From NCBI GenBank assembly GCA_027943245.1, contig JANDJZ010001758.1, positions 1 to 64,000 of the forward strand: a stretch of DNA of 64,000 bases, read 5' to 3'. The notes under the pieces are model-generated. The model ran no database searches, was not told where the DNA came from, and saw only the letters and a list, made by a program, of their open reading frames with translations. The stretch is from Acanthamoeba sp. SK_2022b (taxonomy: Eukaryota; Discosea; Longamoebia; Acanthamoebidae). Positions 44,056 through 55,872 of this stretch are shown piece by piece (position 1 is the first letter of the stretch; each line of letters starts with the position of its first letter). The translations under genes were made by a program, and so were the position numbers.

Positions 44056-44910
44056 ATGGTGCTGATGATTGTCAGCGGCCGTTCCGGTTCCGGAAAATCC
44101 GTCGCCTTGCGGGCGCTGGAAGACATGGGTTTTTACTGCGTTGACAACCTGCCTGTGGTGCTGCTGCCGCAGCTCGCCAACACGCTGGCAGAACGCAATA
44201 TTTCCGCGGCGGTCAGCATCGACGTGCGCAACATGCCGGAATCGCCGGAAGTGTTCGAATACGCGATGACTCAGCTGCCGGACAGCTTCTCGCCGCAGCT
44301 GCTGTTCCTCGATGCCGATCGCAACACGCTGATCCGCCGTTACAGCGACACCCGCCGCCTGCACCCGCTCTCCAGCAAGAACCTGTCGCTGGAAAGCGCC
44401 ATCGACGAAGAGAGCGATCTGCTCGAACCGCTGCGCTCGCGGGCTGACCTGATTATCGACACCTCGGAAATGTCGGTGCACGAACTGGCCGAAATGCTGC
44501 GCACCCGCCTGCTGGGCAAGCGCGAGCGCGAGCTGACCATGGTGTTCGAATCCTTCGGCTTCAAGCACGGCATTCCGATCGACGCCGACTACGTGTTCGA
44601 CGTGCGCTTCCTGCCTAACCCGCACTGGGATCCGAAGCTGCGGCCGATGACCGGTCTGGACAAGCCGGTCGCGTCGTTCCTCGATCGCCATACCGAAGTG
44701 CACAACTTCATCTACCAGACCCGCAGCTACCTGGAGCAATGGCTGCCGATGCTGGAAACCAACAACCGCAGCTACCTGACGGTCGCCATCGGCTGTACCG
44801 GCGGTAAACACCGCTCGGTGTACGTGGCGGAACAGCTGGCCGATTACTTCCGCTCGCGCGGCAAGAACGTGCAGTCGCGCCACCGCACGCTGGAAAAGCG
44901 CAAACAATGA
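44056..44910 (+). CDS. rapZ: RapZ, GlmZ-adaptor and glucosamine-6-phosphate sensor
   Basis: 284 residues. N-terminal kinase-like P-loop GRSGSGKS (8-15); the C-terminal RNA-binding and GlcN6P-sensing domain ends [16 protein letters not shown] (about 247-262) and RTLEKRKQ. RapZ targets the sRNA GlmZ for RNase E cleavage and is titrated by GlmY, adjusting glmS expression to amino-sugar supply. It overlaps ptsO by 4 nt. The gap from ptsN (129 nt) is longer than in E. coli and holds nothing recognisable. Confidence 0.97.
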
Positions 44911-45179
44911 CGGTCAAACAGACGGTTGAAATCAAAAACAAGCTGGGCATGCACGCGCGTCCGGCGATGAAACTGTTCGAGCTGGTGCAAAGCTTCGACG
45001 CCGAGGTGATGCTGCGCAACGAAAGCGGCACCGAAGCCGAAGCCAGCAGCGTCATCGCGCTGCTGATGCTGGACTCCGCCCAGGGCCGGCATATCGAAGT
45101 CGAAGCGACCGGCCCCGACGAAGTCAACGCGCTGGCGGCGGTGGTCGAGCTGTTCAACTCCGGGTTTGATGAAGATTAG
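44907..45179 (+). CDS. ptsO: NPr, nitrogen PTS phosphocarrier
   Basis: 90-residue HPr-family protein. Active His16 in [16 protein letters not shown] and the regulatory-type helix [15 protein letters not shown] are clear. It passes phosphate from PtsP (EI-Ntr) to PtsN. The gene starts in the ATGA overlap with rapZ and is the last gene of the rpoN operon; a hairpin follows. Confidence 0.97.
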
Positions 45180-45475: not shown

Positions 45476-45787
45476 ATGCATATCATTTCCAGGGAACCGT
45501 TCAATAACGCAACGAAGCAATACCCTAATGAAGCCGCTGCTCTCGAGGCCATTTATAAAACGTTGCGACGCGGCGAGTTCCGCACGCCGGACGAGTTAAA
45601 AGCGCTTTTTCCTTCGCTCGATCGTATGAAATACAAAGAGAAATGGTGGGTCATTGACGTCGGCGGCAACCACCTGCGAATTTTGTTCTTTGCCAGCTTT
45701 GAGACACAGAAAGTATTCATAAAGCACATTGTTAGCCACGCCGAGTACGACAAGCTGATGCAGCACTATCGAAGGAGTTCATCATGA
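45476..45787 (+). CDS. HigB-type mRNA interferase toxin
   Basis: 103-residue RelE-superfamily protein of the E. coli HigB type: central FPSLDRMKYKEKWWVIDVGGN (split over about 46-66), then RILFFASFETQKVFIKHIVSHAEYD (about 68-92). In the family these proteins cleave mRNA on the ribosome and are neutralised by HigA. The toxin gene comes first, typical of higBA, and overlaps the antitoxin start by 4 nt. The reading frame is intact. It lies in an accessory spot right after the ptsO operon. Confidence 0.88.
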   Translation: MHIISREPFNNATKQYPNEAAALEAIYKTLRRGEFRTPDELKALFPSLDRMKYKEKWWVIDVGGNHLRILFFASFETQKVFIKHIVSHAEYDKLMQHYRRSSS

Positions 45788-46206
45788 TTACAGATGCCAT
45801 TAAGGCCGCCGATGCGCTGCTGCGCGCCGTGCCCTTATTGCAGGGCAGCGGTTCTCAGCAAGACTACCGGGAAGCGCTCGAATTGGTGGAATATCTGCTG
45901 GAAAACGATGAACACCATCCGCTGATTGACATGCTGGCAAAAAAGATCGCCGAATATGAAGATAACGGCGCCGAGTTTACCGCATTCAACCAGCGTATCG
46001 CCCAACTCCCGCAGGGGGTGGCCGCGCTTCGCGTATTGATGGAACAGCACCAACTCAGCCAAAGTGATTTTGAACATGAGATCGGCAAAAAGTCGTTGGT
46101 CAACCAAATCCTAAGCGGCAAAAGATCGCTGACCATTCCGCACATTATGGCGCTGGCCAAACGCTTCAATCTGCCCCCGGCCCTCTTTCTGCCGGAAGCA
46201 GATTAG
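45784..46206 (+). CDS. HigA-type antitoxin
   Basis: 140 residues. The C-terminal XRE helix-turn-helix (about 85-135, QLSQSDFEHEIGKKSLVNQIL then RSLTIPHIMALAKRFN) would bind the operator upstream; the N-terminal helical region (1-75) contains acidic repeats suited to toxin binding. The start in ATGA overlaps the toxin stop, coupling the two. Matches the long HigA class that partners E. coli-type HigB. Confidence 0.88.
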   Translation: MITDAIKAADALLRAVPLLQGSGSQQDYREALELVEYLLENDEHHPLIDMLAKKIAEYEDNGAEFTAFNQRIAQLPQGVAALRVLMEQHQLSQSDFEHEIGKKSLVNQILSGKRSLTIPHIMALAKRFNLPPALFLPEAD

Positions 46207-46211
46207 CCCCC

Positions 46212-48128
46212 TCAACTCCGGCTCAGGCAGTCCAGCGCCACCGCTTTAAAGCTGTCGAAGCTGTCGCTGCCCAACAGACGGCTCATTGAGCGTTCACGCA
46301 CGAAGGTGACGAACAGCTCGTAGATCGCCATCGCCTCTTCATAGTCGCTCTTGCTGATCGCCAGCAGGAAAATCACGTGCGCGACCTCGCCTTCTCCCCA
46401 GGCGACGCCCTGCGGCGCCAGCAGCGTCACCACCACGGTCTTTTTGGCCAGCAGCCCCAGCGAGTGCGGCAGCGCGATGCCCTCGCCCAGCAGCGTGGAG
46501 ACGATCGCCTCGCGTTCGACCAGCGACGGATAGAAGTCCGCGCCGACGTACCCTTCCCGCTCCAGCTGGCCGCACACCCGGCTGAACAGCTCCGCCTGCG
46601 TCAACGGCTCGTTGAGCACCATGAAATGCTCGGCGTCGAAGAACTTCTCCAGCATGTACGGTCGGGTGCGATCCACCAGCACCAGCTTGCCCAGTTGCTC
46701 CAGTTGGTAATCGGTCGGGAACGGCGACATCACCACCACCGGCTTGTTCTTTTCGCCGATGCGGGCGTTGGAAATCACGAAGTCTTCGTCGATATGCGCA
46801 AGCATCTCGTAATCGCGCAGCGAGACAATGCGCGTCATCACCAGCTGCGGATACTTGCGCGCAATCTGCGCCTGGATCATGCGCACCGTCGAGTTGCCGG
46901 TATCGCACACCAGCATCACCTGCGGGTGGCGCTCATAACCGATGTTGTAATGCCGCTCCAGCCCCACGCCGATGTGCAGCACCAGATAGCCGATTTCGTT
47001 CTCGCTCAGGGTATAGGGGGTGTATTTGCCCCAGCTGGAGACCGCCGCCAGCGTCACGTCGTAAGCCATCGGATAGTGCTGCTTGATGTTGGCCAACAGC
47101 GGATTGGGGATATTGATCTGGTATTTCACCCGCGTAATCATGGTCTTGATATGGGTGAGCAGATCGGCCCGCAGCTGCTCGTCGCCCTGCAGGTTGTAGT
47201 TATAGTGTGCGTTGATGTAGGACAGGATGTAGTCCACCAGCGCTTCTTCATCGTCGGCGTTGATCTCGGTCGGCTGCACGTCCTGCACGCGCCGCGCGGC
47301 AATGTTGACCCGCAAATAGGCCTCTTCGGCCATCGAGATCTCTTTACCGGAGGCCGAACGCAGCTCCGCCGCCAGGCGGGTCGACACCTGACGCACCGCG
47401 TCGTCGCCGTCTTCCACCTCGAAGTCCGGCAGTGGATAGCCGTCGTTGATGCGCCGCAGCGCCACCGCGCAGTAGAAGATCAGGTACTGCTCGCCCTCGT
47501 CGGTCAGGCGAATGGCATATTGCGACAGCAGCGGGTGCAGCAATCCGGCGAACGCCGCTACCTGCGGCTGCAGCAGGATCTCGTTGTTGAGCAGCGGGTT
47601 CTCGGCGTCGGCCAGCTGCAGCTGGAACAGCAGATCGGTGAGGCAAGCGCGGATCGCCATCTCGGCGCCGAACAGCTTCATGCCGTAGCGCGGCTTGGTT
47701 TCGATCGTCAATTGATAGTGCGCCAGACGCTCTCTCACCTCAGCCATGTCGTTTTGCAACGTACCGCGGCTGACGAACCACTCGTCGGCCAAATCCTCCA
47801 GTTTAAGGGAGAAGGCTGAGGTCAAAAAACGCACCAGCAGATAATGCACCCGCTCCTGTGCGCTGCGCGGGGTGGCGTGCTTGCGGCGCTCCTGATGCTG
47901 CAGGGCGCTGAACAGCGCGGCGTTATCGACCTGCAGGCGATAGCCGGCCCCGCGGCTATGCACGAAACGCGCGCCGTATTTGTCCAGGATCTCGTTCAGC
48001 GCGGTGATGTCCGCCCGCACCGTGCGGGTGGACACGGCGAAACGCTTCGCCAGCTCATCCTGCGGCAAAGTCTCGGTTTGCAAAGCATCGAACAAGTAAG
48101 CCAAACGCGGGTAAGGAAATCGCACCAT
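46212..48128 (-). CDS. PTS-responsive transcriptional activator (HTH-PRD-EIIB-EIIA)
   Basis: 638-residue MtlR/LicR-type regulator. N-terminal helix-turn-helix (about 20-45, LPQDELAKRFAVSTRTVRAD) with no RNA-binding CAT domain, so it acts on DNA and is not a BglG-style antiterminator. Two PRDs follow: the second carries histidines in DLLTHIKTM and IGYLVLHIGVG. An EIIB-like domain has Cys near 408 (VCDTGNSTV), and a C-terminal EIIA-fructose-type domain has His near 555 (GIALPHS). Such proteins integrate phosphorylation by HPr and a cognate EII. It is the last gene of the 55.0-46.2 kb cluster, and likely controls it. No PTS permease is encoded nearby. Start 48128 by RBS; an upstream in-frame start exists at 48176. 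Confidence 0.88.
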   Translation of the reverse strand: MVRFPYPRLAYLFDALQTETLPQDELAKRFAVSTRTVRADITALNEILDKYGARFVHSRGAGYRLQVDNAALFSALQHQERRKHATPRSAQERVHYLLVRFLTSAFSLKLEDLADEWFVSRGTLQNDMAEVRERLAHYQLTIETKPRYGMKLFGAEMAIRACLTDLLFQLQLADAENPLLNNEILLQPQVAAFAGLLHPLLSQYAIRLTDEGEQYLIFYCAVALRRINDGYPLPDFEVEDGDDAVRQVSTRLAAELRSASGKEISMAEEAYLRVNIAARRVQDVQPTEINADDEEALVDYILSYINAHYNYNLQGDEQLRADLLTHIKTMITRVKYQINIPNPLLANIKQHYPMAYDVTLAAVSSWGKYTPYTLSENEIGYLVLHIGVGLERHYNIGYERHPQVMLVCDTGNSTVRMIQAQIARKYPQLVMTRIVSLRDYEMLAHIDEDFVISNARIGEKNKPVVVMSPFPTDYQLEQLGKLVLVDRTRPYMLEKFFDAEHFMVLNEPLTQAELFSRVCGQLEREGYVGADFYPSLVEREAIVSTLLGEGIALPHSLGLLAKKTVVVTLLAPQGVAWGEGEVAHVIFLLAISKSDYEEAMAIYELFVTFVRERSMSRLLGSDSFDSFKAVALDCLSRS

Positions 48129-48179
48129 TCTGTGTCCGTCAATCAGGCAACCCGCCCGGTGAACCGGGCGGGCCACGGG

Positions 48180-49394
48180 TTACTTCGGCGGCGGCAGGAA
48201 CGCCATTTGCGAGGGGCTGCCGATCGGCAGATAGCCGCCCACAAAGCTGAGTTTGCCGTCCGTCGGGTTTACGCTGAAACGGGTAACGTTATCGCTGCGC
48301 TGGTTCAACGCATACAGATAGCGGCCATCCGGGCTCAGCGCCAGCGAACGCGGGTAATCGCCACGCGTCCAGGTTTCCGCCACCGGCTTCAACTCACCGC
48401 CGGCGCCCACGCTGAACTGGGCAATGCTGTTATGCAGCCGGTTGGCGACGTACAGCGTGTCGCCGTTCTTGCTGAGCGCCAGCCCCGAAGCGAAGCTGGT
48501 ACCCTGATAGTCGGCGGGCAGCGCGGAAACCGCATGCAGTTGTTTCAGAGTACCTTTTTGGCGATCAAAACGGTAGCTGGTCAACGTCGAGGCCTCTTCG
48601 TTCACCAGCAGCACGGTTTCGCCGTCCGGATGGAACACAAAGTGACGCGGCCCCGCGCCGGCGGAAGAGGCGGCGATCCACGGCGGATCGTTCGGCGTCA
48701 GCCGGCCGCTCGCGGCGTCAAAGCGCCATTGGTAGATGCGATCCAACCCCAGATCGGTGGAGAACACGAACTTGCCGCTCGGATCGCTGGCGATCATATG
48801 GGCATGCGGGCCGTTGTGATCGCTGATGGCGAAGCTGCCGTTCACCGCCGCCGCCGGTTTGGCCGCGCCCGCCGGGCCCTGCTGTTGCTGCACCGAGCTG
48901 GCGGCGCCCAGGCTGCCGTCCGCTTCGATCGGGAAAGCCGCCACGCTGCCGCTGACGTAGTTGGCCACCAGCAGATGCCGCCCGTCCGGCGTCGATGAGA
49001 GATACACCGGCCCCGCCCCCTGCGAATCCACCTGGTTGAGCTGCGTCAGGCCGCCGTCGGCCGGATTGACCCGGTAAGCGGTGATGCCGCCGTGTTTGCC
49101 GCCGTTGAAATCGGCCACTTCGCTGGCGACATACAGCGTCTTGCCATCGGCGCCCAGCGTCAGCTGCGCCGGATTCGGCACTTTGCTGACCAGCGTAGTG
49201 TGGCTCAGCGCGCCGCTGGCCGGATCGACCTGCACCCGATAAACGCCTTCGCCGTTGGGATTGTAGGTGCCGATATAGGCGAAATGAGATGACGTGGAAT
49301 TCATTGCATCCTCAGCATGCAGCGCCGGGCCGGTCACGGCCAGCAGCGCCAGGAACAACGCGGTGCGTCGGGTTGGAGTCTGCCAGTTTCGCAT
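48180..49394 (-). CDS. Exported lactonase-type seven-bladed beta-propeller
   Basis: 404-residue member of the lactonase/6-phosphogluconolactonase (Pgl, PF10282) family. Blades are visible as repeated strands such as YVASEVADFNGGKHGGITAYRV, LLVANYVSGSVAAFPI and LYALNQRSDNVTRFSV. Unusually for this family in enterics it carries a signal peptide (residues 1-27, FLALLAVTGPALHA), so it would act in the periplasm. The active-site residue is not certain in this family, so activity is inferred. It sits inside the amino-sugar-acid cluster; a lactone of the substrate is a plausible target. Confidence 0.75.
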   Translation of the reverse strand: MRNWQTPTRRTALFLALLAVTGPALHAEDAMNSTSSHFAYIGTYNPNGEGVYRVQVDPASGALSHTTLVSKVPNPAQLTLGADGKTLYVASEVADFNGGKHGGITAYRVNPADGGLTQLNQVDSQGAGPVYLSSTPDGRHLLVANYVSGSVAAFPIEADGSLGAASSVQQQQGPAGAAKPAAAVNGSFAISDHNGPHAHMIASDPSGKFVFSTDLGLDRIYQWRFDAASGRLTPNDPPWIAASSAGAGPRHFVFHPDGETVLLVNEEASTLTSYRFDRQKGTLKQLHAVSALPADYQGTSFASGLALSKNGDTLYVANRLHNSIAQFSVGAGGELKPVAETWTRGDYPRSLALSPDGRYLYALNQRSDNVTRFSVNPTDGKLSFVGGYLPIGSPSQMAFLPPPK

Positions 49395-49416
49395 AGTAAT
49401 CCTCAGTATAGGTAAC

Positions 49417-49434
49417 GGCGCGGCATGCCGCGCC
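49417..49434. repeat. 18-bp perfect palindrome in the cluster
   Basis: GGCGCGGCATGCCGCGCC lies between the aldolase gene and the lactonase gene, 23 bases upstream of the lactonase start. As RNA it makes a 7-bp hairpin with a 4-base loop; it could be an mRNA processing or attenuation point. Confidence 0.5.
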
Positions 49435-49481
49435 AGGGGAAAACTTTCGCCTCCCAGCGTTTACCTCATCCCATTGCGCGT

Positions 49482-50222
49482 TCAGCCCACCAGCTTTTTG
49501 GTCATCGCCAGCAGGGTTTTCACGTCCTGCGGACGCGTGTCGCCGCTGGCGGCGTCGATGATCGAGCTGTAGATATGCGGGATCACGCGTTTCACGCCGG
49601 CCGCCAGCGCGATCTCGACGATCGGCTCGTAATTCTCCAGATCGATGCCGCCGGTCGGCTCCAGCATAAAGTCATGCTCGGCGCAGGCCTTGGCTACGTA
49701 CTGGTACTCGTCCTTGCACTTCAGGCCGCCCATCGGGAAATACTTGATCGAGCTGCCGCCCATGTCCTTCAGCAAGGCGATGGCGGTTTCCACCGGCACG
49801 ATGCCATCAGGCGCTGCGGCACTCAATGGGCCGGTAGAAATCTTCACCCAGCCGACGCGGCCGGTCGGCGATACCAGGCCGTTGACCACGCTGTCGTTTT
49901 GGCCCAGCAGCGCGCGGCTGGCGCCGACGCCGGTAAACACCTGGTTAACGTGCTGCGGCTGCACCTGCTGAGCGATCAGGCTGACCATCGCCGACTGTTT
50001 CGGATCGCCGGCGCCCAGGCCGACCGAGAGCGCGTTTTCAATCAGGCGCGCATAGCGCAGCATGTCGGTCACCGCGCTGTCGACGTCCGGGTAGTTCTTG
50101 GAGAGTACGCCCACCAGCACATGGCCTTCCGCCGCGGCGTAGATGTCCTGCGCGTTGGCTTTGGAGCCAGCCAGCACGTTCAGGCAGACGCGGTCGCGAT
50201 AGTAGTTAGGCTGCAGCTTCAT
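49482..50222 (-). CDS. 2-dehydro-3-deoxy-phosphogluconate (KDGP)-type aldolase
   Basis: 246-residue TIM-barrel enzyme of the DgaF/EF_0839-type KDGP aldolase family. The Schiff-base lysine is Lys160 in GGSSIKYFPMGG; acidic and glycine residues closing the barrel are in FMLEPTGGIDLENYE. It is expected to cleave a 2-keto-3-deoxy sugar acid phosphate into pyruvate and a triose phosphate in the cytoplasm. The start overlaps the preceding PLP-enzyme gene by 4 nt, so the two reactions are probably consecutive. Confidence 0.88.
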   Translation of the reverse strand: MKLQPNYYRDRVCLNVLAGSKANAQDIYAAAEGHVLVGVLSKNYPDVDSAVTDMLRYARLIENALSVGLGAGDPKQSAMVSLIAQQVQPQHVNQVFTGVGASRALLGQNDSVVNGLVSPTGRVGWVKISTGPLSAAAPDGIVPVETAIALLKDMGGSSIKYFPMGGLKCKDEYQYVAKACAEHDFMLEPTGGIDLENYEPIVEIALAAGVKRVIPHIYSSIIDAASGDTRPQDVKTLLAMTKKLVG

Positions 50223-51337
50223 GCTTGTTTCTCCGTAAACAGGTTCTTGATACAGCTAAAGACGGTCATCAGCTGTTGCTCGTCGACGCTGCGCACGTCG
50301 ACCTCAATCTTGCCCTCGTTGGCCTTGTAGCCGCGGAAGTAGATGGCAATATCGCCGGTTTTCAGCGCCTGAACGATGTCATAGGTCGACCGCCCCAGCA
50401 CCGCTTCGTCGAAAGTGATCTCGGCGCGGGCGATATCGCGGCCGGCGCTGTCCCAGACGGTTTTGGCGCTGACGCCGGTCAGGGTGTTGAGGCTATCGAG
50501 GAACGGCGTCATCCGCGCCACCATCTGTTGCCCGGTGGTTTTCTCAAGCGTCAGATAGCTTTCAATCGCCTGCGTCAGCCCGAGGATGCCCTCTTTGCCG
50601 ACCTTCATCGCCCGGCCGATACCGCCGGACTGCAGCTTCACCCACTCGACGTACTGTTTCTTGCCGATCACGAGACCGCTGGTCGGCCCCTCGATGGCTT
50701 TGGCGCCGCTGTAGATCACCAGATCGGCCCCCATCTGGTAGTAACACATCAGATCTTCTTCCGCCGCGGCGTCGACGATCAGCGGCAGGTTATGCTTGCG
50801 CGCCACTACCGCCGCCTGTTCGACGGACAGAATGCTTTTCTGCACGCAGTGGTGCGATTTGACGTACAGGATCGCCGCCGTCTGCGGCGTGATGCAGGCT
50901 TCAATCTGCTCCGGCGAACATTCGTTGGCGTAGCCCGCCTCCACCACCTTGCCGCCGCCCAGCGCCACCATGGTGTCCACCGGCGCGCCGAAGTTGACGT
51001 TGTGACCGCGCGGCAACACGATCTCGCGCGGCACGGCGATCGGCGCCGAGTGCAGGTTCACCAGCAGATTGGCGTTATCTTTGACGATCGCTGCCGCCAC
51101 CGACTGGGCGATGCCCGCCGAGGCGCAGGAAACGATCACCGCGTCCTCCACGTTGAGCAGATCGGCGATGTAGGCGCCGGTCTTGTTGACCAGATCCTTG
51201 ATTTCGAAATAGTGATTCAGGCCGTAGTCAACGGCGTCAATCACGTCCTGGCGCGGCGTGGAAACGCCGAGAATGGTCATGCGGCCGGAGGTGTTGATCA
51301 CCTGCTTCAAACCGTATTTTTCATAAATCGAAGACAT
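50219..51337 (-). CDS. DgaE-type PLP-dependent ammonia-lyase
   Basis: 372-residue fold-type I PLP enzyme in the SelA-like/DgaE group. The PLP lysine is Lys213 in YSGAKAIEGPTSG; the cofactor phosphate region is VSCASAGIAQSVAAA (69-83) and the aspartate pairing the ring nitrogen is in LIVDAAAEEDL (about 189). DgaE of Salmonella removes ammonia from D-glucosaminate 6-phosphate, giving KDGP, and the KDGP aldolase gene follows immediately here. Overlaps the upstream amidohydrolase gene by 17 nt. Substrate identity is inferred from family and context. Confidence 0.85.
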   Translation of the reverse strand: MSSIYEKYGLKQVINTSGRMTILGVSTPRQDVIDAVDYGLNHYFEIKDLVNKTGAYIADLLNVEDAVIVSCASAGIAQSVAAAIVKDNANLLVNLHSAPIAVPREIVLPRGHNVNFGAPVDTMVALGGGKVVEAGYANECSPEQIEACITPQTAAILYVKSHHCVQKSILSVEQAAVVARKHNLPLIVDAAAEEDLMCYYQMGADLVIYSGAKAIEGPTSGLVIGKKQYVEWVKLQSGGIGRAMKVGKEGILGLTQAIESYLTLEKTTGQQMVARMTPFLDSLNTLTGVSAKTVWDSAGRDIARAEITFDEAVLGRSTYDIVQALKTGDIAIYFRGYKANEGKIEVDVRSVDEQQLMTVFSCIKNLFTEKQA

Positions 51338-52460
51338 GGGCTGCCTCCCCTTGTTCGGTTAATAGGATTTCCCCGGCCACCACCGCGGCCAGCGGCACCA
51401 ACAGCTGTTCGCCCTCGGCGGTTTGCCCTTCGGCGTCGGCGAACACCTGCGGTTCGCGGCGCAGTTCAAACAGCGTGAAATCGGCGTCATAACCCGGCTC
51501 CAACCGCCCTTTGCCGCTCAGCTGCAGCGCCGACGCGGCGTTCTCCGTCACGCAGGCGATCACCTGCGGCAGCGTCAGGCCGACGCTGAAGAATTTGGAC
51601 ATCACCGTCGCCAGGCTGTGCACCGGCCCGTTCATGCGGTTGCGGCAGTAAATATCTGAGCTGATGGTATGCGGCAAAATGCCCAGCGAGATCGCCTGGC
51701 GCGCCACCTCGAAGCTGAAGCTGGCGGTGCCGTGCCCCACGTCGAGCAACACGCCGCGCCGCAGCGCCCGCTGGATCGACTCGCGCAGCGTGCCCGCCGG
51801 CGTCAGAATGCGGTTCGGTTTGCCGTTGTAGCAGTGGGTGATGATGTCGCCACGGGTCAGCAGATCGGCGATCTCGTCCAGATTCGGCGGGTTGTTGCCG
51901 ATATGCACCATCAGCGGCAGCTGGCGGTTTTCCCGCTGGATCTCTTTGGCCAACACCAGCGGCCGGGTGCCGTTCTTGCCCACCACGCTGCTGCTCATGC
52001 GCGCCTTGATGCCGATGATAAAACCGGGATGGTTGGCGATGGCCTGGCCGGCCTCGTGCTTGTCGATATCCGTCAACTCCGCCAGCTCGTTCTGCCGCAG
52101 CAGGCCGATGCGCGAGATGTTGAGGAAGGCGAACACGTTGGTTTTGGCGCTGCGCGTCAGCTGATAAAAGGCGTCGATATCGTCGGCGCCGGTGCTGCCG
52201 GCATCGACCACGCTGGTGACACCGCTGGCGACGCCGACCCGATCGGGCTCGTCATGGTAAATCGGCGAGTCGGGATAGCAGTGCACGTGCGCATCGATCC
52301 AACCGGCGCTCAGGCGGCAGTTGCCCGCCAGATCCAGTTGGCGAACGGCGCTGACGTCCGCCGCCAACCGCCCGACCGAGGCTATTTTGCCGTCTTTCAC
52401 CGCCAGATCGATCAGCGTGTCGTCCGCCAGTCTGGCACCTCTGATTACTAAGTCATACAT
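51321..52460 (-). CDS. Metal-dependent amidohydrolase/deacetylase
   Basis: 379-residue amidohydrolase-superfamily enzyme (EF_0837/AHA_3915-like family as I recall it). The metal site is complete: His58 and His60 (IDAHVHCYP), Lys152 for carbamylation (GIKARMSS), His186 (MVHIGNN), His209 (ITHCYNG) and Asp269 (ISSDIYCRN). This matches a binuclear dihydroorotase/deacetylase-like centre. It would remove an acyl group or open a cyclic amide before the ammonia-lyase step. Cytoplasmic, no signal peptide. Confidence 0.85.
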   Translation of the reverse strand: MYDLVIRGARLADDTLIDLAVKDGKIASVGRLAADVSAVRQLDLAGNCRLSAGWIDAHVHCYPDSPIYHDEPDRVGVASGVTSVVDAGSTGADDIDAFYQLTRSAKTNVFAFLNISRIGLLRQNELAELTDIDKHEAGQAIANHPGFIIGIKARMSSSVVGKNGTRPLVLAKEIQRENRQLPLMVHIGNNPPNLDEIADLLTRGDIITHCYNGKPNRILTPAGTLRESIQRALRRGVLLDVGHGTASFSFEVARQAISLGILPHTISSDIYCRNRMNGPVHSLATVMSKFFSVGLTLPQVIACVTENAASALQLSGKGRLEPGYDADFTLFELRREPQVFADAEGQTAEGEQLLVPLAAVVAGEILLTEQGEAAHVFDL

Positions 52461-52483
52461 ACCGCATTGCTCCTGTTAGCCCG

Positions 52484-52510
52484 GGCGCCGCCGCAGCATC
52501 GGGCGGCGCC
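52484..52510 (-). other. Intra-operon hairpin
   Basis: Stem GGCGCCGCC/GGCGGCGCC (52484-52492, 52502-52510), 9 bp perfect, between the DUF4310-type gene and the amidohydrolase gene. No T-tract, so a processing or stability element is more likely than a terminator. Confidence 0.5.
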
Positions 52511-52523
52511 TGGCGCAGGCCTC

Positions 52524-53177
52524 TTAAGAAATGGCTACCGGGAAGATCGCCCCCAGGATCATCGCGCCGAGGATCGCTCCGCCGGTGATCGGTTTACCCC
52601 AGATATAGAACAGCAGCGCGCCGAGCAGCGAACCGATGCCGATCGGGATCGAGGCGGTCATCGCCGACAGGATGATCAACGGCCCGAGGAAGCGGCCCGA
52701 CGAGTTGCCCGCGCCCATCATCACGTCCGCCCCGTAGGTGGAGTTGCTCTGATTGATGGTGAATTTGCGCGCCAGGATGATCACGTAACCGATCGCCAGG
52801 CCGATGACGAGGCCGGTGGCCAGCGAAGCGGCGAAGTTGGCGACCGGGAACACGATGCCGGCCCCCAGCAGCAGCGCCGGTACGCCCAGCCCGACGCCGG
52901 TCTGGATCGCGCCACCGATGTCCAGGATCCCCACCAGCGAACCTTCGATGATGCGCGCGAACAGGAAGCTGGCGCCGAACGCCGCCACCGCGCCATACAC
53001 GCCGGTATCCATCCCCGCCCGCAGCATGGAAACGAACGCCACTTCGTTAAAGGCGCCGATGCCGTACAGGTAGTACATGTGCGTCCCGGCGAACACGCCG
53101 GAGGACAGCAGGCCAACAAAAATCGGGAATGACCAGTCGGCGTACCAGAAGCCTTTTTGGGTTTGCTCTTCCATCAT
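52524..53177 (-). CDS. DUF4310-type polytopic membrane protein
   Basis: 217-residue inner-membrane protein I recognise as the DUF4310 (EF_0833-like) family. About six membrane segments are visible, with glycine-rich loops (GILDIGGAIQTGVGLGVPALLLG; YGADVMMGAGNSSGRFLGPL, split). The C-terminal half repeats IGIGSLLGALLFYIWGKPITGGAILGA. No known transporter signature. It sits 8 nt downstream of the DUF4311 gene, and the two probably form one membrane complex. Function not established. Confidence 0.85.
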   Translation of the reverse strand: MMEEQTQKGFWYADWSFPIFVGLLSSGVFAGTHMYYLYGIGAFNEVAFVSMLRAGMDTGVYGAVAAFGASFLFARIIEGSLVGILDIGGAIQTGVGLGVPALLLGAGIVFPVANFAASLATGLVIGLAIGYVIILARKFTINQSNSTYGADVMMGAGNSSGRFLGPLIILSAMTASIPIGIGSLLGALLFYIWGKPITGGAILGAMILGAIFPVAIS

Positions 53178-53185
53178 CCCGCTCC

Positions 53186-53962
53186 TTATTTACCGCTCAG
53201 GGTGTTGTGAATGGCGTCCAGCCAGCCCGGCACGCCGAGGCTGAAGGACTCGAGAACTTTCATGTCGAAGCCGCGGAAGAAGCCGCTCAGCACGAACAGC
53301 AGCACGATCACCGCCATCATGATCTTGGTGATCTTGTTCCAGCCGCTCTCTTCCACGCCTTTGCCGATCAGAATGCCCAGCACCAGGCCCGGTACGGCGT
53401 TGCCCATGATCAGCTGCGCCAGGCCGCCGAAGATGGTGCCCCAGAAGCCGGAACGGCGCCCGGCGTCGATCGCCGCCAGCCAGAAGATCACCGGCATCAC
53501 GGTGTTCACCAGCAGGTTGGCCGCCGGCACCAGCACCTTGATCGCGGTGACCTGCAGCGCGGCAGGCACGGCGGAAGCGGTGGTATTGAGGAACGCCACC
53601 ACCAGCATGCCGATGATGCCGCAGGCAATGGCCATTTTTTTCGGATCGTGCAGCGTTTGCGCCAGATTGCGGTTCTTGACCATCAGGGCCGCCGCGCCCC
53701 AGTGCGGGATGATGCGGTGGTCGACGTCCTGCGTGAAGGAGCCCGCCGCCACGGAAGACGCCCAGGCGTTGAAGAAGAAGCCCAGACCGAATGAGAAGTG
53801 GGAAGCCGGATCGCCCTCGCAGGAATTCAGCTCGCCCAGGGTGCGAAACGCCCCCATGCCCTGTGTTGTCGGTGCGTGGAACATGCGCGCGGCGCCGGCC
53901 CCTACGCCGACCCCCACCAGCCCACCGATAATAATCGATTTAAATAAGATGATTAAAAACAT
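53186..53962 (-). CDS. DUF4311-type polytopic membrane protein
   Basis: 258-residue inner-membrane protein, DUF4311 (EF_0832-like) family. It starts with a glycine-rich helix (SIIIGGLVGVGVGAGAARMFHAP) and keeps a conserved polar stretch THGM-like: FRTLGELNSCEGDPASHFSFGLG (split over about 39-61) with a single Cys and two acidic residues, a possible substrate or metal site. About six membrane segments. It is the larger partner of the DUF4310 protein. Function unknown; predicted permease subunit by context. Confidence 0.85.
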   Translation of the reverse strand: MFLIILFKSIIIGGLVGVGVGAGAARMFHAPTTQGMGAFRTLGELNSCEGDPASHFSFGLGFFFNAWASSVAAGSFTQDVDHRIIPHWGAAALMVKNRNLAQTLHDPKKMAIACGIIGMLVVAFLNTTASAVPAALQVTAIKVLVPAANLLVNTVMPVIFWLAAIDAGRRSGFWGTIFGGLAQLIMGNAVPGLVLGILIGKGVEESGWNKITKIMMAVIVLLFVLSGFFRGFDMKVLESFSLGVPGWLDAIHNTLSGK

Positions 53963-53992
53963 CAGTATACCCTTTCATTTATGCTAACGTTT

Positions 53993-54289
53993 TTATTTCG
54001 TGACGAAGACAACCTTCTCGGTATTGATAATGGTTACGTTCACGGTTATTTCCAGAGAAACGGCATAGCTCTTTCTTTCACGCGGCAAAAAGAAGAAAAG
54101 AAATTTCTCTTTAGTTATTTTCTCTTCCGCTTTCACTACGCTGACGTCCTGCGGCTCGATACGCAGCAGAATATTGTTGGTGGACTTTAATACCGCGCCC
54201 TGCACATTAGCCAAGGCGGAAGCAAAAGCTTTCGCTTTGCTGTCGCCTTTACCCTCCACCTTTACCGATGTGGTATATTGCTCTTTCAT
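53993..54289 (-). CDS. DUF4312-type small protein
   Basis: 98-residue soluble protein, DUF4312 (EF_0831-like) family: KEQYTTSVKVEGKGDSKAKAF at the start, then alternating strands and a basic segment FFFLPRERKSYAVSLEI. The predicted fold is a small alpha/beta unit, dodecin-like in its opening (a strand, then KAKAFASALANVQ helix). Its ATG overlaps the stop of the SFCGS gene by one base (TAATG). Function unknown; probably a cytoplasmic partner of the two membrane proteins. Confidence 0.82.
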   Translation of the reverse strand: MKEQYTTSVKVEGKGDSKAKAFASALANVQGAVLKSTNNILLRIEPQDVSVVKAEEKITKEKFLFFFLPRERKSYAVSLEITVNVTIINTEKVVFVTK

Positions 54290-54654
54290 TATGGATTGCC
54301 ATGTTTTTTGACGTAGGCTTCCACCAGTTTCTGGCCCAGCTCTTCTTTATCCATAAAGCCGAAGCCCAGCACGTTGTAGCCTTCGTTAATTGCCGTCACG
54401 CCCTCTTCCACCGAACGCATGCCATATTTAGCCTTGTAGCCGTGTTTGGTTTGCGCGGTAATCGCGCCGGCGCCGCCGCTGCCGCAAAAAGAGATGCCCA
54501 GCTGCGCGTTTTCCGCTTTCATGACGTCGCCGAGCTTCATGTCCGCCGCGACGCCGGGGATGACTACCGCTTTTCCGCCTGCGCTTTCAACGCCTTGGCC
54601 AACTTTTTGCCCTTTGCCCAGACGATCGCCGATCACTACGGTAATTTGACCCAT
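54289..54654 (-). CDS. Glycine-rich SFCGS-family protein
   Basis: 121 residues, the EF_0830/AHA_3911-type family named for its invariant SFCGSGGAGA (about 54-63). The N-terminal strand-loop ITVVIGDRLGKGQKVGQGVE and the central cysteine in a glycine loop give a Rossmann-like or EIIB-like impression: an exposed Cys between strand and helix would suit phosphorylation or nucleotide binding, but this is inference. It precedes the DUF4312 gene with a 1-nt overlap. Confidence 0.85.
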   Translation of the reverse strand: MGQITVVIGDRLGKGQKVGQGVESAGGKAVVIPGVAADMKLGDVMKAENAQLGISFCGSGGAGAITAQTKHGYKAKYGMRSVEEGVTAINEGYNVLGFGFMDKEELGQKLVEAYVKKHGNP

Positions 54655-54690
54655 GGTATATTCTCCTGATTGAAATCGATGCGTTAACCG

Positions 54691-55038
54691 CTATGCGTTA
54701 TTATCTTTCGCCACTTCGAAGTGCACTGACAGCAAATAGGCTTCTTCGATAGGCAATGTGCCAAACTGATTCACCACGCGCTCCGCCATTTGCATGGATT
54801 CGGCAGAGATTTCGTCGAACAACGATTTATCCACCTCCGGCAACGGCTCACCGGTTATTGAACGCAGCACCATGGCGCGAATATGCGATTCCAGCATCTG
54901 TTGCTGCACCGCATTGGTATAAATATTTTCAGCATTCAGCATCGCGGTAATATCCGCCAACACCCGAGCAGCGATCGCTCCGGCTTCGCTGACATCGGAT
55001 TGTTCAATTTCTTTTATCGAAGCAGATCCATCATTCAC
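54691..55038 (-). CDS. Stand-alone PRD-domain protein
   Basis: 115-residue single PTS-regulation domain (EF_0829/AHA_3910-like). Conserved histidines are in LESHIRAM and YLLSVHFEVAKDN, the two positions phosphorylated in PRDs of BglG-type regulators, but no nucleic-acid-binding domain is attached. It is the first gene of the ten-gene cluster and may sense PTS state or gate the neighbouring transporter or regulator. Start is GTG at 55038, preceded by AGGGG; no in-frame ATG fits the conserved N-terminus. Confidence 0.82.
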   Translation of the reverse strand: MNDGSASIKEIEQSDVSEAGAIAARVLADITAMLNAENIYTNAVQQQMLESHIRAMVLRSITGEPLPEVDKSLFDEISAESMQMAERVVNQFGTLPIEEAYLLSVHFEVAKDNNA

Positions 55039-55136: not shown

Positions 55137-55309
55137 ATTTTCTGTGTAGACCGGTTTTTTCCAGTTCGAAGTGGAAATCGAATGACGCGCGGGGATCCAT
55201 TTCGCAAAACGGCGCGGCGGTGAAAAAGTCAATGAGATAACAAATAGATAACCGGGCTAACCGTTTCTTTTGCCACGATTGACGATAAAAGCCTTCGTGA
55301 TCGGGATCT

Positions 55310-55461: not shown

Positions 55462-55872
55462 ATGACCAAACCCATCATTACTATTAATGAGCTGGATGCG
55501 GAACGCCTGGATGCGCTATTGGAACAACCGGCCTTTGCCAACACCGACGTCGCCGCCGCGCTGAACGACGAGTTGGATCGCGCGGAAATCCTGCCGCCGG
55601 AGAAAATGCCGGCCAACGTGGTGACCATGAACAGCCGCGTGCGTTTTCGCGATCTGCACACCGATGAAGAGCACGTGCGCACGCTGGTTTACCCGGCATC
55701 GCTGAAAGACAGCCACGATCAGCTGTCGGTAATGGCGCCGCTGGGCGCAGCGCTGCTCGGCATGCACGTCGGCAAGCAGATCTCCTGGCAATTGCCGAAC
55801 GGTGAAGAAGCGCGGATTGAAGTGCTGGAATTGCTGTACCAGCCGGAAGCGGCGGGCGAATACCACCGTTAA
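55462..55872 (+). CDS. rnk: Rnk, GreA/GreB-fold RNA-polymerase-binding protein
   Basis: 136-residue regulator of nucleoside diphosphate kinase. N-terminal short coiled coil (about 1-45, [23 protein letters not shown] region) and C-terminal FKBP-like domain shared with GreA ([36 protein letters not shown]). It binds RNA polymerase in the secondary channel without Gre cleavage activity. RBS GGAG before the ATG at 55462; leader terminator upstream. Confidence 0.95.

Follow-up and report, generated by a model that had tools for sequence, protein, structure and literature searches.

A conserved operon of DUF4310, DUF4311, DUF4312 and SFCGS genes on a Serratia-type contig: a possible phosphorylating uptake system for N-acetyl-D-glucosaminate

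Gene cluster and its distribution

A cluster of ten genes was analysed in a stretch of 64,000 nucleotides (positions 1 to 64,000 of contig JANDJZ010001758.1, assembly GCA_027943245.1, deposited as Acanthamoeba sp. SK_2022b), referred to below as the window. The cluster lies at 46212–55038 on the minus strand and is considered here as a candidate system by which an N-acylated amino-sugar acid would be taken up and degraded. Ten minus-strand genes had been placed in this interval and named in an earlier reading made without database searches (the sequence-only reading). All of the open reading frames (ORFs) were found at those coordinates and on that strand, and NCBIfam and Pfam family models assigned each of the ten as named, with each NCBIfam model named below scoring over its own cut-off.

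In transcription order, the first gene encodes a small PRD protein of the EF_0829 family (54691–55038; TIGR03582, 132 bits, cut-off 69). The next four genes, termed here the DUF/SFCGS module, encode the SFCGS protein (54289–54654; TIGR03577), a DUF4312 protein (53993–54289; TIGR03578, PF14189) and the membrane proteins DUF4311 (53186–53962; TIGR03580, PF14188) and DUF4310 (52524–53177; TIGR03579, PF14187). They are followed by an amidohydrolase/deacetylase of the EF_0837 family (51321–52460; TIGR03583, 538 bits, cut-off 432), a DgaE-type pyridoxal phosphate ammonia lyase (50219–51337; TIGR01437) and a DgaF-type 2-dehydro-3-deoxy-phosphogluconate aldolase (49482–50222; TIGR03581; equivalog NF047796, 386 bits, cut-off 300). 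The last two genes encode a lactonase-type seven-bladed propeller with an export-signal-like N-terminus (48180–49394; PF10282), an optional member, and a regulator with Pfam HTH_11, Mga, PRD and C-terminal EIIA-type domains (46212–48176). The regulator ORF as listed begins with GTG, the next in-frame ATG being at 48128. Successive genes are separated by a gap of 36 bases, an overlap of 1, gaps of 30, 8 and 63, overlaps of 17 and 4, and gaps of 87 and 3 bases.

The cluster DNA is 97.5% identical to that of Serratia marcescens 106R over 8834 aligned bases. The window sits on a 108,766-base contig in an assembly of 44.9 Mb in 1129 contigs, which is too large for a bacterial isolate. The contig is therefore regarded as of Serratia type and its presence in a eukaryotic assembly probably reflects contamination or an associated bacterium. 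No near DNA match to the cluster was found in E. coli genomes, and none of 275 pattern matches in viral contigs encodes a cluster relative.

For comparison, the best 80 of 528 stretches encoding a relative were used (the genome loci). Nine core genes are kept in one order and on one strand in 76 of the 80, so the arrangement is not due to chance. Of the four exceptions, three (L007, L053 and L077) are truncated at the end of a contig, and in the fourth (L040) DUF4312 was undetected. The lactonase is present in 33 of the 80 loci; L007 and L077 end before its position. The operon was found in Serratia, Yersinia, Pantoea, Erwinia, Klebsiella, Bartonella and Enterococcus. The sequence-only reading had joined the DUF genes and the enzymes in one pathway, a claim favoured by their co-occurrence: among 349 Pseudomonadota genomes, the source genome included, DUF4311 scored over its cut-off in nine and the EF_0837 amidohydrolase in the identical nine, so loss of one without the other was not seen in this sample.

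Several loci are irregular. In Serratia rubidaea NCTC12971 (L021) several cluster genes are broken into many ORFs, which looks like assembly frameshifts. In Aeromonas caviae KAM479 a single ORF (L096 10738–11349) fuses the start of DUF4310 with the second half of DgaF, and the amidohydrolase and DgaE are missing, through either a block deletion or an assembly fault. E. faecalis IDRL-9065 carries dgaF in two overlapping ORFs (L093 15573–16315) that are missing from the annotation table. In a further locus (L142 3168–5383) two ORFs stand between the regulator and dgaF, one of 587 residues that matches no Pfam family and one for a CesT-like secretion chaperone; this insert looks like an effector–chaperone pair inside the operon. 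A weak DUF4311 match at L091 was rejected as chance, since it falls in a glycine-rich helix of a protein that we take to be DjlA-like.

Proposed uptake by the DUF/SFCGS module

Our preferred reading, held tentatively and with somewhat less than even confidence, is that an N-acylated 2-amino-2-deoxy-aldonic acid is taken up and broken down by the products of the operon. N-acetyl-D-glucosaminate (GlcNAc1A) is its likeliest identity, and entry would be by a phosphorylating permease dependent on the phosphoenolpyruvate (PEP) phosphotransferase system (PTS). DUF4310 and DUF4311 would form the membrane part of the permease, with DUF4312 as a putative accessory subunit. PEP would donate a phosphate that moves through enzyme I (EI) and HPr to an EIIA, either the EIIA-type domain of the regulator or a different one, and then on to SFCGS, the proposed phosphocarrier subunit; its invariant cysteine would act like the cysteine of EIIB and the acid would enter the cell 6-phosphorylated. 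The amidohydrolase, judged by its family, would take off the acetyl group. The DgaE-type lyase, judged by its family and its conserved phosphate arginines, would eliminate ammonia from D-glucosaminate-6-phosphate, and the DgaF-type aldolase, assigned at equivalog level, would yield pyruvate and glyceraldehyde-3-phosphate. Where present, the exported lactonase would open the corresponding lactone, and the regulator would work at a single palindrome upstream of the operon.

The assignment of the uptake step to the DUF proteins, made in the sequence-only reading, gains support from Bacillota, in which the enzymes without the DUFs have another transporter in the operon. On a Priestia plasmid the same three enzymes occur with a PfkB kinase, GntR and a GntP (gluconate) symporter, and on a Niallia megaplasmid with a PTS EIIC, a MupG-type 6-phosphoglycosidase, GntR and a PfkB kinase; neither locus shows the DUF module. 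In three alphaproteobacterial loci relatives of the amidohydrolase and DgaE adjoin ATP-binding cassette (ABC) transporters. Since all of these loci carry other transporters beside the enzymes, the module appears, by analogy, to fill a transport slot in which it is exchangeable with them. E. faecalis has the module together with a lactose/cellobiose-family EIIC, MupG, the enzymes, a PfkB kinase related to 2-keto-3-deoxygluconate (KDG) kinases and a 99-residue protein without a family match. A search restricted to GntP- and EIIC-like transporter genes found none within 3 kb at the 80 genome loci.

The predicted model of SFCGS matches the RpiB/LacAB fold on fold comparison. Its Cys57 is invariant (189 of 189 alignment rows) and takes the position of the RpiB catalytic cysteine, residues 45–117 aligning with 54–127 of TIGR02133. 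RpiB/LacAB isomerases have a ring-opening histidine and C-terminal phosphate arginines; no histidine is among the invariant columns of 49 SFCGS sequences. A search of SFCGS against PDB sequences gave nothing useful. The model of DUF4310 and DUF4311 is helical and of low confidence (pLDDT 69.8), and profile comparison gave no support for kinship between the two proteins.

Of the modes considered, PTS-dependent and phosphorylating uptake by the module is the likeliest, as suggested by three indirect lines of evidence: the distribution of kinase genes, an HPr–EI gene in Bartonella and the phosphate arginines of DgaE. Using two PfkB queries, a PfkB-like gene was found within 3 kb in one of 84 module loci, at least two of which are incomplete, and in both module-free loci; the single module locus is that of E. 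faecalis. On two Bartonella plasmids the complete operon is followed by ptsP, encoding an HPr–EI fusion in both, and one of the fusions visibly has the histidine motifs of both HPr and EI. In DgaE, Arg304, Arg335 and Arg349 align with Arg301, Arg332 and Arg346 of the Salmonella D-glucosaminate-6-phosphate ammonia lyase (DGL; alignment to 7lc0, E 3.8e-88), which are modelled near the substrate phosphate in the available part of the DGL report (PMC9529869). All 86 DgaE rows (two sequences entered twice) retain the three arginines, and the third is a cysteine in all three ABC-linked relatives. They are also kept in the kinase-bearing operons, so the kinase there may act before DgaE. The operon itself encodes an EIIA domain (PTS_EIIA_2 in the regulator, E 1.5e-16), and His571 of this domain is present in all alignment rows except that of E. 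faecalis.

Several findings weigh against phosphorylating uptake. The 80 loci are nearly all from Enterobacterales, so the kinase pattern comes from few independent lineages. In Pfam (E up to 1), none of DUF4310, DUF4311, DUF4312 and SFCGS resembles a PTS EII domain, and the poor membrane model gave no significant fold match. The Bartonella HPr–EI could serve the regulator alone; HPr and EII phosphorylation is known to control PRD regulators. In E. faecalis the module and a KDG-type kinase occur together, and its regulator is without the EIIA domain and His571. The lack of EII similarity and the E. faecalis kinase would fit a non-phosphorylating importer in the same pathway for the same class of substrate, with an unlinked kinase acting on the acid or on KDG and the PTS parts, namely the PRDs, the EIIA domain and the Bartonella HPr–EI, needed for control alone. 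This alternative is possible, if doubtful: no PfkB-like gene lies near the other 83 module loci (two incomplete), and the phosphate arginines of DgaE are kept even where no kinase is linked.

The kinase of the Niallia and E. faecalis operons would be explained if these versions imported the disaccharide acid GlcNAc-GlcNAc1A and their EIIC–MupG route released unphosphorylated GlcNAc1A, which is speculative and argued by analogy. In L. paracasei, according to the available part of the source, a cellobiose-type PTS and a GH170 (MupG-type) enzyme are needed for the use of diacetylchitobiose (PMC12791066).

Candidate substrate, operator and surroundings

Since the equivalog-level DgaF gives 2-keto-3-deoxy-6-phosphogluconate (KDPG) and is preceded by DgaE and a deacetylase-type amidohydrolase, the enzyme families suggest that the substrate is most likely GlcNAc1A or a relative. 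The first product of C1 oxidation of a sugar is a lactone, so an exported lactonase would be in keeping with a sugar oxidised at C1. The sequence-only reading had proposed uptake and degradation of an N-acylated or cyclised amino-sugar acid through an undescribed membrane importer. Its core idea fits the tests; its complete pathway does so in part, as the substrate is read from enzyme families, nothing pointed to a lactam and the exported lactonase is optional.

Relatives of the amidohydrolase in the PDB are 8wzy, 2ics and 2ogj, and its similarity to D-aminoacylases is weak (best E 1.2e-5). A literature search found no paper on structure 8WZY. Earlier biochemistry exists on this amidohydrolase group (cog3964), for which the literature search found no relevant paper.

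The choice of GlcNAc1A is weakened by three results. DgaE scores 375 bits against the cut-off of 600 of the D-glucosaminate-6-phosphate ammonia lyase equivalog, passing the subfamily model. A link to lytic polysaccharide monooxygenases (LPMOs) was tested and found to be unsupported: LPMO_10 occurs in two of nine module genomes and in 20 of the remaining 340 (Fisher P 0.10, uncorrected for phylogeny). An LPMO is present in four of six hand-picked cluster genomes. The acid may thus be scavenged or formed by another oxidation. Lastly, Serratia and Klebsiella are reported to carry the unphosphorylated ong route or cluster too (available part of PMC9537276), so two routes may coexist.

With the transporter and pathway as proposed, the substrate could instead be a different N-acyl-aldonate, varying in epimer or acyl group, or a disaccharide acid. 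The DgaE score, the missing LPMO association and a substrate read from enzyme families only all leave room for this. We consider it unlikely, as DgaF is at equivalog level for a product of the D-gluconate series and a gluconate-type symporter stands in for the module in Priestia. A role of SFCGS as a working sugar-phosphate isomerase or as a sensor, with the DUF membrane proteins doing something other than uptake, is very improbable. In its favour, SFCGS combines the predicted fold of the RpiB isomerases with a cysteine at the catalytic position, and no known transporter fold matches the membrane proteins, but an aldonic-acid pathway requires no aldose–ketose isomerase, a transporter occupies the place of the module in two module-free operons and the limited transporter search described above found no GntP- or EIIC-like gene near the 80 loci.

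A palindromic operator-like site, TTTCCA-N8-TGGAAA, lies at 55158–55177, some 120 bases ahead of the first gene; with one mismatch or fewer allowed, the window contains no other such site (0.10 expected). It recurs near the operon start in 74 of 83 upstream regions at the same threshold (57 exact) versus 0.28 expected, as derived from the remainder of the loci. The nine loci from which it is absent include those of E. faecalis, one Bartonella and Xenophilus. A stricter 20-base pattern (two mismatches or fewer) occurs at exactly one place per genome in eight of eight genomes (4.0 to 5.6 Mb), and in the same eight loci 138 to 229 bases separate the palindrome from the first ORF downstream. With one site per genome, the regulon would be the operon alone, and the regulator presumably acts at this palindrome. 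A sigma-54 pattern was found upstream of none of 84 operons; two sigma-70-like sites were found versus 4.1 expected from shuffles, and 16 terminator-like sites versus 9.4 expected.

Directly beyond the regulator, the window encodes a HigB-type toxin and helix–turn–helix antitoxin pair (45476–46206); at the matching place of the K. pneumoniae locus a RelE/RelB pair is annotated (L095 17669–18185). RapZ and an HPr-type protein, presumably NPr, are encoded near the same end of the cluster (44056–45179), and 18 of the 80 genome loci have an HPr-like ORF close to the cluster. The divergent upstream neighbour is a Rnk/GreA-type protein (55462–55872).

Significance and relation to known systems

The four central proteins bear only DUF-type names though the operon is spread from Serratia to Enterococcus. 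In the literature outside most subscription journals, no paper was found that names DUF4310, DUF4311, DUF4312 or SFCGS or that combines two or more of EF0830 to EF0839, and none on N-acetylglucosaminate that concerns a DUF/SFCGS system. If the module is a phosphorylating permease, it would represent a new class of sugar transporter in which the RpiB fold is reused for phosphotransfer. If the substrate is GlcNAc1A, the operon would provide a route for oxidised-chitin aldonic acids in bacteria without clear Ong enzymes; for Aeromonas strains, the available part of PMC11653859 gives OngB/OngC alignments that are distant only or not significant. The operator and the kinase pattern make the proposal directly testable.

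SFCGS shares its predicted fold and cysteine position with the RpiB/LacAB isomerases but is shorter (121 residues), and the proposed pathway needs no isomerase step. With PTS permeases the operon shares an EIIA-type domain, the Bartonella-linked HPr–EI and an invariant cysteine in a soluble alpha/beta subunit; unlike them, its four module proteins are without EIIB, EIIC or EIID similarity.

The yhf operon of E. coli K-12 (L098 8033–13423) encodes a small PRD protein, YhfY, an RpiB-like protein, YhfU, and a membrane protein, YhfT. YhfU (DUF2620) and SFCGS have the motif Cys-x-[ST]-G-[AG]-G in common. Profile comparison is weak (YhfU, E 0.04 local and 0.005 global; YhfY, E 0.0015) and gave no support for a relation of DUF4310 or DUF4311 to YhfT. 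DUF2620 scored over its cut-off in two of 249 genomes, too few for a deep profile. From these similarities, yhf may be a sister system.

The L. paracasei chb cluster has the EIIC and MupG/GH170 types that stand beside the Niallia and E. faecalis enzymes. It differs in acting on unoxidised diacetylchitobiose, and a term search of the available part of its description found no amidohydrolase mentioned (PMC12791066).

The Salmonella dga system for D-glucosaminate (DgaABCD, DgaE and DgaF; available part of PMC9529869) has the lyase and aldolase families and the order of the late steps in common with the operon, and the phosphorylating uptake of that pathway is proposed for the operon as well. Unlike dga, the operon has no mannose-type EII DgaABCD among its ten genes, its DgaE is under the equivalog cut-off, and it adds the amidohydrolase and the DUF/SFCGS module.

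The Ong pathway for oxidised chitin in Pseudoalteromonas resembles the proposal in its substrate, GlcNAc1A (proposed here), in deacetylation followed by deamination and in KDPG as the end intermediate, so far as the available part of the report describes it (PMC9537276). In Ong, according to the same source, the acid is processed unphosphorylated and a KDG kinase takes part; the operon, in contrast, has no PfkB-like gene within 3 kb in 80 loci (two incomplete; unlinked kinases not tested). OngB has a D-aminoacylase-like fold (available part of PMC12017989), whereas the proposed deacetylase of the operon belongs to the EF_0837 family, which D-aminoacylases match at E 1.2e-5 or worse. DUF4310, DUF4311, DUF4312 and SFCGS might constitute an unrecognised class of PEP-dependent phosphotransferase permease for N-acetyl-D-glucosaminate, a suggestion we make with considerable reserve; an RpiB relative would serve in it as the cysteine phosphocarrier, and the operon would be the phosphorylative counterpart of Ong.

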